In this document: positions 22,830-28,100 of the stretch, piece by piece
Numbering within the stretch: the first letter of the stretch is position 1
Layout of the letters: the number at the start of each line of letters is the position of its first letter
From: a bacterium
GTDB lineage: Bacteria; SM23-31; JAUVVT01
Assembly (NCBI GenBank): GCA_030616165.1
Contig: JAUWXV010000021.1
Location: 1 to 28,146, forward strand
Direction of reading: 5' to 3'
Length of the DNA stretch: 28,146 nt
Program-made: the position numbers and the translations under genes
Notes under the pieces: model-generated
Told to the model about the DNA's origin: nothing
Databases searched by the model: none
Seen by the model: only the letters and a program-made list of their open reading frames with translations

Positions 22830-23312
22830 TTAAAACATACCTTTCCATTCTCTTAACTTCTCTCTTTCGAAATCTCTCCTTGCTATATCTTCCCTTTTAT
22901 CATATACTCTTTTACCTTTTGCTAAAGCTAATTCAACTTTAACTCTCCCTTTTTTAAAATATAACTTAAGCGGAACAAGAGTCATACCTTTTTCTTCTAC
23001 CTTGCCTAAAAGTTTTCTTATTTCCTTTTTATTAAGCAAAAGTTTTTTATCCCGCATGGGTTCATGATTAAATATATTCCCTTGATTATACGGGCTTACA
23101 TGCATATTTAACAAAAAAACTTCACCATTTTTTGTAATTGCGTAGCTATCTTTCAAATTAACATTTCCATTTCTTATAGATTTTACTTCTGTCCCTTTCA
23201 AGACAATTCCAGCTTCATATGAATCAATTATATGATAATCATGTTTTGCTTTTCTGTTTGTGGCAACTATTTTTTCTATTTCTTTCTCATTTATGTTTTT
23301 TATCATTTTCAT
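22830..23312 (-). CDS. smpB: SmpB, tmRNA-binding protein
   Basis: Partner of tmRNA in trans-translation; it brings tmRNA-alanine to stalled ribosomes. 160 residues. The family core is clear: [68 protein letters not shown] and [20 protein letters not shown], with the basic C-terminal tail [14 protein letters not shown] that enters the decoding site. ATG at 23312 or the third codon could start translation; neither has a clear Shine-Dalgarno sequence. tmRNA (ssrA) itself is not in the window. A good promoter lies 61 bases upstream. Confidence 0.95.
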
Positions 23313-23476: not shown

Positions 23477-23562
23477 GCCGAAGTGGTGAAATTGGTAGAC
23501 GCGCACGGTTCAGGGCCGTGTCCCGATTACTCGGGATGTGGGTTCGAGTCCCACCTTCGGCA
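23477..23562 (+). tRNA. tRNA-Leu (anticodon CAG)
   Basis: Acceptor GCCGAAG pairs with CTTCGGC; the discriminator base is A and CCA is not encoded. The D arm contains GTGAAATTGGTAGACGC. The anticodon stem-loop is CACGG-TTCAGGG-CCGTG, giving CAG, which reads CUG. A long class II variable arm TCCCG-ATTACT-CGGGA follows, then the T arm GTGGG-TTCGAGT-CCCAC. All features of a functional tRNA-Leu are present in 86 bases. It is the first plus-strand gene of the window, transcribed away from smpB. Confidence 0.97.
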
Positions 23563-23565
23563 CAA
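23513..23565 (+). repeat. 53-bp direct repeat, copy 1 (inside tRNA-Leu)
   Basis: The 3' part of tRNA-Leu, from the anticodon loop to three bases past the discriminator, is repeated without a mismatch at 23900-23952. The spacing of 387 bases encloses the GIY-YIG gene, as an att-type or target-site duplication would. Confidence 0.95.
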
Positions 23566-23605
23566 AGTCTGACAACTTAGACATTTCTTTTAAAATTAAG
23601 TAACA

Positions 23606-23884
23606 ATGTATTGCACATATATTCTAAGTAGTGAGAAAGATGGTTCCTATTATATAGGATTTACAAATAAATTGCAAAAACGCATCAGTCAGCATAATTC
23701 AGGTAAATCAAAATATACATCAAAACATCAACCTTATAAATTAATTTATTACGAACCTTTTGAAACGAAAACAGAAGCCATTCAAAGAGAAAAATATTTC
23801 AAAACAAAGGAAGGACGTGATTTCTTCCTCAGAAAAATAGAAATAGTGAAATTGGTAAAGTCGAAGACCTCGCGCGCACGCTAA
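23606..23884 (+). CDS. Stand-alone GIY-YIG nuclease running into a tRNA-Leu copy
   Basis: Small UvrC-N-terminal-like GIY-YIG domain protein, 92 residues. The family core is present: YILSSEKDGSYYIGFTNKLQKRISQHNSG (the two motif tyrosines, the catalytic Arg and the His), then LIYYEPFETKTEAIQREKYFK with the metal-binding Glu. Related proteins usually end shortly after GRDFFLRK. Here about 12 more residues (VKLVKSKTSRAR) are encoded by sequence derived from tRNA-Leu: GTGAAATTGGTA (23846-23857) and CGCGCACG (23873-23880) match its D arm and anticodon stem. The ORF starts 43 bases after the intact tRNA and ends 16 bases before the 53-bp repeat. It may be a tRNA-targeting homing-type element; such a role is inference. 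Start codon ATG, with no strong ribosome binding site. Confidence 0.8.
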   Translation: MYCTYILSSEKDGSYYIGFTNKLQKRISQHNSGKSKYTSKHQPYKLIYYEPFETKTEAIQREKYFKTKEGRDFFLRKIEIVKLVKSKTSRAR

Positions 23885-23949
23885 TCCTTCGGAGTTCAGG
23901 GGCCGTGTCCCGATTACTCGGGATGTGGGTTCGAGTCCCACCTTCGGCA
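23846..23949 (+). pseudogene. Broken second copy of tRNA-Leu
   Basis: From 23900 the sequence is identical to the 3' half of tRNA-Leu. The 5' half survives only as patches (GTGAAATTGGTA, CGCGCACG, GTTCAGG) separated by unrelated insertions, one extra G follows the anticodon region, and the anticodon stem no longer pairs. GTCGAAG at 23860-23866 could still pair with the acceptor CTTCGGC (one GU), but the D loop lacks the GG pair, so a functional tRNA is unlikely. Confidence 0.8.
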
Positions 23950-23952
23950 CAA
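23900..23952 (+). repeat. 53-bp direct repeat, copy 2
   Basis: Perfect repeat of 23513-23565, the 3' half of tRNA-Leu plus three following bases. It closes the segment that carries the GIY-YIG gene. Confidence 0.95.
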
Positions 23953-25119: not shown

Positions 25120-28100
25120 CTAAATTATTTTTTGTGCTTTGATCCAGGTATCTAAGGTAAAGTTAAAAGAATTTACAATATTAGGAAGTACTAAAGGTGA
25201 AAATATTTTATTTTTTTTATTTTTAATATTAGTTATTATAAAATTTTTATGGCGTTCAGAAGTAATGGAATTTAAAATTGTATTAGTCCAAGTTACCTTA
25301 GAATTTAAAGGAATACTTTCAATCCAAAGCCATTTTAAAAAATAAATTGTCAAAATTATTAATCTATTCACATCATTGTCTTTATGCCTCAAAGAGTTGA
25401 AAGGAATAAGACTACGTTCATTCGGGAAGAAACTTGTAGAATCTACAGCGGTAATAAGTGTTTTAACGGTAATTGATATAAAATGATAATTAAGAGAAAG
25501 AAGACTAATCAATAATTCATTGTATTTTTTTTCTGTGATGAAATTTTTTTTCAAAAGAACTTCAAGTAATGGCTGAATACTAAATACTTTCACATTAAAC
25601 TCATTTTCCGCTAATATTTTTATAAAAAAATCATCAACATATAATGTTATAGACCTAGATTGGCTCTCAAGTATTGGTTCCATAACTTCATTTCCCAAAA
25701 TTTTTATTAGTTTCTTTATCTTATCATCATTAATTTTACTATGTCTTTTTATACTTTTTCCGATAATTCTTACTTTGTCATTGCTTTTAATAAAATTAAC
25801 TATATCTTCAAGAAAAGTTATTTCTTTTCTTATATATTCTGGAGAAATATCTATTGTATATATTTCACCTCCACTAGTTACTAATGAGGTATAACCATGT
25901 TTAACCATAATATTTTTTAAAGAAATTAATTTTTGAAATTCATCAAAAACGGATTGACATATGTAAATTTCATTAAAAACTTTTGGCAATAATTCTAATA
26001 GATTTAATTTTTTAAGTGTTAATAATGAAATAATATCTATAACAATTGATGTCGATTTATCTGCAATATCTCTTTCATTTTGATATTCGATAGTTTGACC
26101 TGATGATATCCATAATTTTAACATTTTGTGAGAAGTAATAAAAGACCATGTTGTAATTATATCTTTACCCAACGAATGTGCAAAAAAACCAAGTGGTAAT
26201 CGGTCACTGTTATAAATTCTTTCCACTTCTTCAATTCTATTAGATTTTGTTTCAAGAAGATTTTCTATTTCAGCTTTGAACTTTTTAGGATCTTTAGAAA
26301 TTGTATATTTTTCAAGACCTTTATTATCTGGGAATCTTTTATTAAAATTATTTATGGTATCTTGGAATAATGTTATATATTTATTATTTATTTTAGATAA
26401 ATTATTTTCAGAATGTAAAAATGTGCCAAAATAATGTAGGTGCAAGTTTGGATCTTTGGGGTCCTTTTTTAATGCTTTATAAGCTAATTCCAAAGAATCC
26501 TCAAATTTGCCATAATGAGAATAAACAGAACTGATAAATGCGAGATCTTGAGCAGAACCATTAAGTCTTTTTTCAGCTAATCTAAGTGCATCAACAGCTT
26601 CATTAACTTTTCCGAGCCTAAATAAGCAATTTCCATAATTCATTAAATAATTAATTTTATTAGGATATTTTTGGTATAATATTTTAAAAATTACGCTTGC
26701 TGGGTCATAATTTTCTAATTTAAAAAAAATAGCCCCTTCTAGTTCTATATAAAAATCATCGTAAAAATGGATTTCTTTTATTTTTTGACATAATTTAAAG
26801 CACTTTTCAAATTGATTAGAATTATACAAAGAAGATAAGTATCTTTTTAAAATTTCATCATTAATATATATACTGCAAAGAGATTCATATAATTTTGCAG
26901 CTTTTTTAAAATCATTTTTTTCTCTTCTATCACATAAAATATCAGCAAGTAAGATTTTAATTAGTAATTTTGTTTTATTTTTTGACTTTTTAAAAGCATT
27001 ATCTAAAATATTAATTGCTTCATCATACTTTCCTAACAATCTTAAATGTTTTGCCTTTGCTAAAATGATTTCCGGTATAAATCCAAATTGTTTTTCAAAT
27101 TCATCTAATTTATCTTCTGATTTCTTTGTCTGAATGTTTTTGTCATATGCATCAATTAAAAGATTATGAAATATAAAATCTGGAAATTTAAGGTTTTGTT
27201 TTTTTATTTCATCTTCAAGAATGGGGATAGCATTTTGAGGATTTCCCATAAAAATATTAATTTGAGATTCTATTAATTTAGGTTCAGAATCTTCAGGTTT
27301 AAGTCTTTTAAATTGTTGAAGGTATTTTAATGCACTATTATAATTACCATTTGCTGTTAAGGTTAAAATTAAATTTCTAAGTATTTCTGGGTCTTCATTT
27401 AATAATTCATTTGCATTGATAAAATCTGACTCACCTTTTTCAAAATCACATATTAAAACATATATAAGACCTCTGTTAGAATAAGCTTTTGAGAGAATAC
27501 CTTTTTGTTCTTTTTCATCAAAATCATTTATAACCTTAGACAATTGTTCTAATGCAGTATTTATATATTTATAATTATTTTCTGTAATTTTTTTATTGTT
27601 TTTTAATAAATTCTGTATAGAAGAAATAACAATATCTCCATACAATAAATACGCAGCAAAATAATTTGGCTTATTTTTTATAACTTCATCTATACTTTTC
27701 AATGCTGATTGGAAGTCATTTAATTTACTTTCCACGAATGATTTTATATATAGAATATCAGATTCTTTATTTAAATCTTCATCTTGAAAAAGATTAATTG
27801 CTTCTTGAGGTTTATTATCTAATACTAATAAATTTGCTTTAATATCTATAGATTGAATATTCTTAGGATTTATTTTCAATGCTTTATCTATGATTTCTAA
27901 ACCTTCAGAAAATGTACCTTCAAATAAATGTATTAATGCTTTGTATTGTAATTTTCTTTCTTCATATTTACAATTTTTAATAGATTCAATTAAATATGGA
28001 ATAGCCTTTTCTTGTTCAAAAAAAGAATTTATATAAGTTTGAGCTATATAAACATTAGCTGAATATAAAATCTCTTTATCTTCAGAGCTTTGTACTTTTA

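Follow-up and report, generated by a model that had tools for sequence, protein, structure and literature searches.

The GIY-YIG nuclease gene beside tRNA-Leu in the window (the whole stretch of DNA analysed, 28,146 nucleotides) is probably a copy of a widespread single-gene element of the homing type, which would target structured RNA genes and above all those for tRNA and tmRNA. Sequence comparison leads to this reading: the recurrence of the gene beside RNA genes, its co-orientation with them, the partial RNA gene copies around it, the empty sites in relatives and the conserved catalytic residues together fit a free-standing homing-type gene that leaves one intact RNA gene. That the arrangement recurs at many different tRNA genes, across at least 27 bacterial families, suggests a minimal and hitherto unrecognised selfish gene specialised in tRNA genes.

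A nuclease gene between two copies of tRNA-Leu

The features of the locus are as follows.

22830..23312, reverse strand: smpB, encoding the SsrA-binding protein (Pfam/NCBIfam SmpB), the synteny landmark of the tRNA locus
23477..23563, forward strand: intact tRNA-Leu, anticodon CAG (ARAGORN; Rfam RF00005, 49.3 bits)
23513..23565, forward strand: first copy of a 53-nt direct repeat, inside the intact tRNA plus 2 nt (repeat comparison)
23564..23605, forward strand: spacer of 42 nt from tRNA-Leu to the nuclease start codon (sequence)
23606..23884, forward strand: GIY-YIG nuclease gene, 92 aa, UPF0213/Slx1-like (PF01541, E 1.7e-19; profile match to 1zg2, UPF0213, 2.3e-22, and also to SLX1)
23840..23952, forward strand: disrupted second tRNA-Leu copy, from tRNA position 4 to the 3' end, plus AA (alignment of the two tRNA copies)
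23846..23884, forward strand: final 12 codons and stop of the nuclease ORF, VKLVKSKTSRAR and stop (tRNA-copy alignment and ORF translation)
23900..23952, forward strand: second copy of the 53-nt repeat, 3' part of the disrupted tRNA, 100% identical (repeat comparison)

The tRNA-Leu(CAG) at 23477-23563 is the only intact tRNA in the whole window according to ARAGORN and Rfam, and neither calls the disrupted copy at 23840-23952 a tRNA. A preliminary description of this DNA had reported an intact tRNA-Leu, a GIY-YIG gene of only 279 bases and a broken tRNA copy sharing a perfect 53-nt repeat with the intact one. All of this holds: positions 23513-23565 recur exactly at 23900-23952, which cannot be chance, and the ORF is 279 bases long with the stop counted and matches PF01541. 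The same description had taken the flanking copy for a mere 3' half of the tRNA, and this we correct. The second copy, whose first base is 23840 (GAAATAGTGAAATTGGT...), follows the tRNA collinearly from position 4 as far as the 3' end, so that it is a nearly full-length, disrupted tRNA, with 8, 5, 13 and 1 extra nt in the D-arm and anticodon arm in the same alignment. The last 12 or so codons of the nuclease ORF and its stop are read from the 5' half of this disrupted tRNA, which bears out the earlier statement that the C-terminus is a read-through of tRNA sequence. The T-arm is whole in both copies in the window, and the T-arm break described below is therefore seen only in relatives.

No integrase gene was found in the window, four ORFs of which were profile-searched and the remaining ones judged from the ORF list. 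The GIY-YIG ORF is the sole ORF between the two tRNA-Leu copies, and the integrase of a tyrosine-recombinase element is thus absent from that interval. Nor was any intron family, group I or group II, matched in the window at Rfam gathering scores. The nuclease ORF stands alone in intergenic DNA beside a tRNA, outside any intron or intein, as free-standing homing endonuclease genes do. Further along the window, outside the repeat-bounded unit and just past the broken tRNA copy, lies a small ORF matching HTH_Tnp_1_2 (PF13022; 24321-24704, reverse strand), and a large TPR protein with the PIN domain of the TPR-GreAB-C-PIN system (PF20698) is encoded at 25120-27879 on the reverse strand.

Association with tRNA and tmRNA genes across bacteria

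The survey comprised 146 distinct genes from about 300 diverse genomes, many of which are draft assemblies. Two kinds were separated by C-terminal motif: kind A, which resembles the window gene (98 genes scoring at least 60 bits were counted), and kind B, ending in NPxWxDL and similar motifs (n = 40). An intact tRNA or tmRNA gene lies within 300 nt of 50 of the 98 kind-A genes and of 0 of the 40 kind-B genes (Fisher p 4e-10), where some of the loci depend on ARAGORN calls that take in disrupted tRNAs (L007, L036). Homologs spread randomly, with no association to tRNA, would have spoken against the earlier proposal, and this is not the distribution found. The 50 RNA-adjacent kind-A genes span 27 family codes and 30 genera, and the RNA genes used include 17 tRNA isotypes, tRNA-Sec among them, as well as tmRNA. 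Almost every adjacent RNA gene (54 of 55; 34/35 upstream and 20/20 downstream) is on the same strand as the nuclease gene. Several genomes contain three to five copies, each at a different tRNA (up to five per genome). Counting against a homing element, about 45% of the kind-A genes lack any RNA gene inside 300 nt, though some of these are located at contig ends or inside 23S rRNA. Two genes follow tRNAs that are cut off by contig ends.

A tree of the family, which rests on few columns and is poorly resolved, has tRNA adjacency clustered on it, with 19 changes compared with 41 in shuffles. L123 is the only scanned relative with a group I intron nearby. A scan of genome contigs with the single protein gave only one distant fragment. 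Relatives in phages are few, and near the one inspected, in Rhizobium phage RHph_Y65, no tRNA is annotated.

Some other settings were observed in the survey. Two GIY-YIG genes (L030:1467-1765 and L108:1190-1509) are located inside 23S rRNA genes, like intervening sequences, with inverted repeats at their boundaries that measure 18 nt (100%) in the former and 24 nt (96%) in the latter. In a subgroup ending in GSGRAFxxRHFW (L094/L110 and L107, at tmRNA; L126; L142), the leader that separates the ORF from the RNA gene is rich in palindromes and contains TGGCAGGCCA-like motifs, and in L094/L110 two such genes stand in tandem behind tmRNA. A CATGGCARG leader motif was considered as the mark of one subgroup and rejected, being present in only 2 of 18. 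The kind-B genes (L002:123-489, L003:1397-1828, L018, L047, L050 and others) often have REP-like palindromic or direct repeats at their flanks (e.g. TGTCATTCCTGCGAAAGCAGGAATCC) and never a tRNA within 300 nt in the survey set; kind B is possibly a GIY-YIG counterpart to REP/RAYT systems.

The window protein has the complete catalytic set of the GIY-YIG superfamily (PF01541), with the invariant Y, YxG, R, H and E. The catalytic G, R and H are kept in 98 of 98 kind-A domains and the two Y and the E in 96-99%, and this conservation indicates that the kind-A genes are maintained and are not debris. Members of the family are about 80-95 aa long. The nearest solved relatives by profile are the UPF0213 proteins 1zg2 (BH0048) and 1ywl (EF2693), followed by SLX1; a single-sequence structure model, itself weak (pLDDT 66), also has UPF0213 1zg2 as its top fold match. 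The protein is a single domain with no separate DNA-binding domain, which counts against a homing role.

Partial tRNA copies and their layout

The preliminary description had suggested searching the same genome and its relatives for this family beside duplicated tRNAs, and the arrangement does recur. At 41 of 57 tRNA-adjacent loci the neighbouring tRNA has a partial second copy, compared with 2 of 40 control tRNAs without the gene, drawn from six of the gene-bearing genomes (p 1e-11); the two scans differ slightly, covering both strands at gene loci and the plus strand for controls.

Two mirror layouts occur in the family: either the intact tRNA lies upstream and the gene is followed by a 3' remnant, or the gene is preceded by a 5' remnant and the intact tRNA lies downstream. 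The window locus has the former, its downstream remnant reaching the tRNA 3' end. This was the single layout described earlier, which stands for the window and part of the family and has to be extended by the mirror order. Where the intact tRNA is upstream, 14 of 17 fragments stop no more than 2 nt from the tRNA 3' end. Where it is downstream, 14 of 17 rows have an upstream fragment that starts at position 1-2, and in 12 of 17 its end falls from -2 to +15 nt of T54; usually it stops 3-25 nt ahead of the coding domain. The gene typically abuts the T-arm break in relatives. In six loci the ORF enters the downstream intact tRNA, its stop being the TAG of the tRNA or, in L104, a TAA overlapping the anticodon. 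In L139, tRNA-Pro is duplicated in tandem together with its terminator and the gene, the second gene being decayed.

Remnants that span the tRNA middle have mostly lost the anticodon arm, so that most of them cannot decode, and often a palindrome is found in its place. Palindromes in broken copies were considered as a diagnostic feature or as element ends and rejected, since intact anticodon and variable arms also score (29/74). Because of this, and because palindromes of the form TCCCGA..TCGGGA are dispersed in some genomes, we treat them as decay or secondary insertion. Across whole genomes, TCCCGA-N2..8-TCGGGA occurs 239 times in G006 and 84 times in G000, compared with 0 and 1 for a reversed control pattern. 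Upstream of tRNA-Glu in L114 are tandem truncated tRNA-Glu copies about 107 nt apart, in each of which a palindrome (TTCCCGATTTCATCGGGA in most) replaces the anticodon arm.

Empty sites and other copies in the same genome

Comparison with related genomes for an empty site, also suggested earlier, was fruitful. In three genomes of the same class (G002, G004 and G005), smpB adjoins tRNA-Leu(CAG) and has, as read from the sequence, the tyrosyl-tRNA synthetase gene as its other neighbour; there is one intact tRNA, and the sequence read behind it contains neither a nuclease gene nor a second copy. Within a single genus, the gene is found behind tRNA-Gln in G090 and is absent in G230, whose tRNA-Gln is 95% identical to that of G090 and whose flank is 83% identical. 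Presence and absence at one site are thus seen among relatives at class distance for tRNA-Leu and within one genus for tRNA-Gln. Judged by eye, G230 (L173) does carry, about 200 nt downstream of the intact tRNA-Gln, a short fragment of its 3' end with no nuclease gene. This could be a scar left after gene loss, or possibly an independent duplication. Since a tRNA duplication without the gene had been named beforehand as evidence against the proposal, we count this one case against our explanation; among the controls only the 2 of 40 tRNAs mentioned above had a partial copy.

The window's own genome contains four GIY-YIG genes above the Pfam cut-off. L004, one of the four, comes immediately after the tmRNA gene; behind L004 is a copy of the tmRNA 3' end, broken at its T-loop by a run of three small palindromes. 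G005 (L060) has, at a contig edge, the same gene with a tmRNA end interrupted in the same way. The remaining two genes of the own genome are of the sister kind and flanked by repeats (73-nt direct and 31-nt inverted).

The core idea of the preliminary description, a putative minimal mobile unit associated with tRNA that has no integrase and keeps one working tRNA, is strongly supported by these genome comparisons through recurrence, strand bias, gene-specific partial copies and empty sites. The part that did not stand concerns the second copy, which is a disrupted whole tRNA.

Alternative explanations

The gene could instead be leftover cargo between att-like repeats of a tyrosine-recombinase element, and not their cause. 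tRNA 3' ends are common integration sites, and the fragments of tRNA that integrated elements leave behind are well known (PMC9897764). The likeness is evident, with an intact tRNA on one side and a 3' tRNA fragment on the other; in several loci the distal fragment comprises only the final 15-22 nt of the tRNA, much like an att site, and G230 carries a fragment without the gene. However, the repeat-bounded unit in the window holds this single small gene alone (about 0.3 kb) with no integrase seen, the mirror layout with a 5' fragment before the gene and the intact tRNA behind it is not att-like, and neither is an ORF that merges into the tRNA. Passive cargo also sits poorly with control tRNAs that are mostly free of fragments, and with RNA-gene adjacency in half of the kind-A genes and none of the sister kind. 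We therefore regard leftover cargo as unlikely.

A nuclease that reads no tRNA sequence and cuts hairpins or cruciforms in the manner of Slx1 would settle at the stems of tRNA, tmRNA and rRNA and, for the sister kind, at REP-like palindromes. The similarity to Slx1, the inverted repeats around the two genes in 23S rRNA, the palindromic repeats that often flank kind B and the palindromes found instead of the anticodon arm in most broken copies all point this way. Yet the breaks cluster in the T-arm and not at any stem, and palindromes of the same type are dispersed anyway in some genomes (G006 and G000), so that purely structural targeting appears quite unlikely. Very unlikely, in our judgement, is a tRNA-coupled RNase, regulator or abortive-infection effector that acts on tRNA transcripts or shares the tRNA promoter, with the duplications as by-products. 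The strict co-orientation with the tRNA and the ORFs ending within it are in its favour, whereas GIY-YIG enzymes are classically DNases, the nearest solved relatives beyond UPF0213 are the Slx1 DNA nucleases, and the patchy presence, the empty sites and the locations at tmRNA and 23S rRNA are easier to reconcile with mobility than with a fixed function.

A possible mechanism

For the homing-type element that we favour, we propose that the nuclease would cut a tRNA gene, in most cases in the conserved T-arm/T-loop (G-GTTCGA) or close to it. Repair may then proceed by recombination with a copy bearing the nuclease gene and a tRNA segment, or alternatively by an unequal process that duplicates a tRNA segment. 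Either way, one complete tRNA would be regenerated, upstream or downstream of the gene, and the other copy would be free to decay, its anticodon arm giving way to a short palindrome in most relatives. In the form with the intact tRNA downstream, the ORF often ends inside the tRNA and borrows the stop codon of that sequence. RNase P, on freeing the 5' end of the tRNA, might then cut the nuclease mRNA short and so limit expression. Recognition of the target is perhaps partly structural, as the nearest solved relatives after UPF0213 are the branched-DNA nucleases of the Slx1 type.

Relation to known systems

The nearest precedent is SegB, a free-standing GIY-YIG homing endonuclease of phages T4 and T6. 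SegB is a larger protein than the members of the window family. The likeness, drawn from published descriptions, lies in a stand-alone GIY-YIG gene among tRNA genes with no intron or intein. In T6 escapers, SegB drives tandem amplification of tRNA-Tyr and segB, the 5' end of the tRNA sharing microhomology with the 3' end of segB (PMC13096335; PMC2988022), a close parallel to the ORFs that end in tRNA 5' sequence here. SegB differs in belonging to phages and to one tRNA cluster, whereas the present genes are found on bacterial chromosomes at many isotypes, tmRNA and 23S rRNA, encode about 80-95 aa and are flanked by broken tRNA copies. In CPR bacteria, GIY-YIG ORFs with no recognisable intron have been described inside rRNA genes, at the tops or bases of stem-loops (PMC11270868). 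These insertions are sparse and were judged to lie outside homing, in a text that does not use the term "tRNA gene" (PMC11270868); L030 and L108 match their pattern. The UPF0213 or prokaryotic Slx1-like single-domain GIY-YIG proteins (BH0048, 1zg2; EF2693, 1ywl) are alike in domain size, in sequence and in the fold of the low-confidence model. We know of no report of tRNA association or mobility for BH0048 or EF2693.

In the literature searched, which leaves most subscription journals outside it, there was no report of GIY-YIG genes associated with tRNA or tmRNA genes in bacterial chromosomes; given this coverage, the absence is no proof of novelty. We are evenly divided about the broader proposal that many bacterial lineages carry minimal mobile genes, undescribed in that literature and consisting of one small GIY-YIG gene each. 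Such genes would invade tRNA, tmRNA and rRNA genes by cut-and-repair at their most conserved element and regenerate one RNA gene, while the spare copy would lose its anticodon arm and the ORF could end in the host tRNA.

Implications

If the reading as a homing-type element is correct, a specialised selfish gene would inhabit the tRNA and tmRNA genes of many bacteria, as the chromosomal counterpart of phage SegB, and its predicted nuclease target is the conserved T-arm. It would account for some of the pseudo-tRNAs and tRNA fragments that trouble annotation and for which integrases are usually made responsible. Furthermore, it would offer a simple experimental system for a nuclease that invades an essential gene without death of the host, and may represent a source of tRNA gene duplication in evolution.
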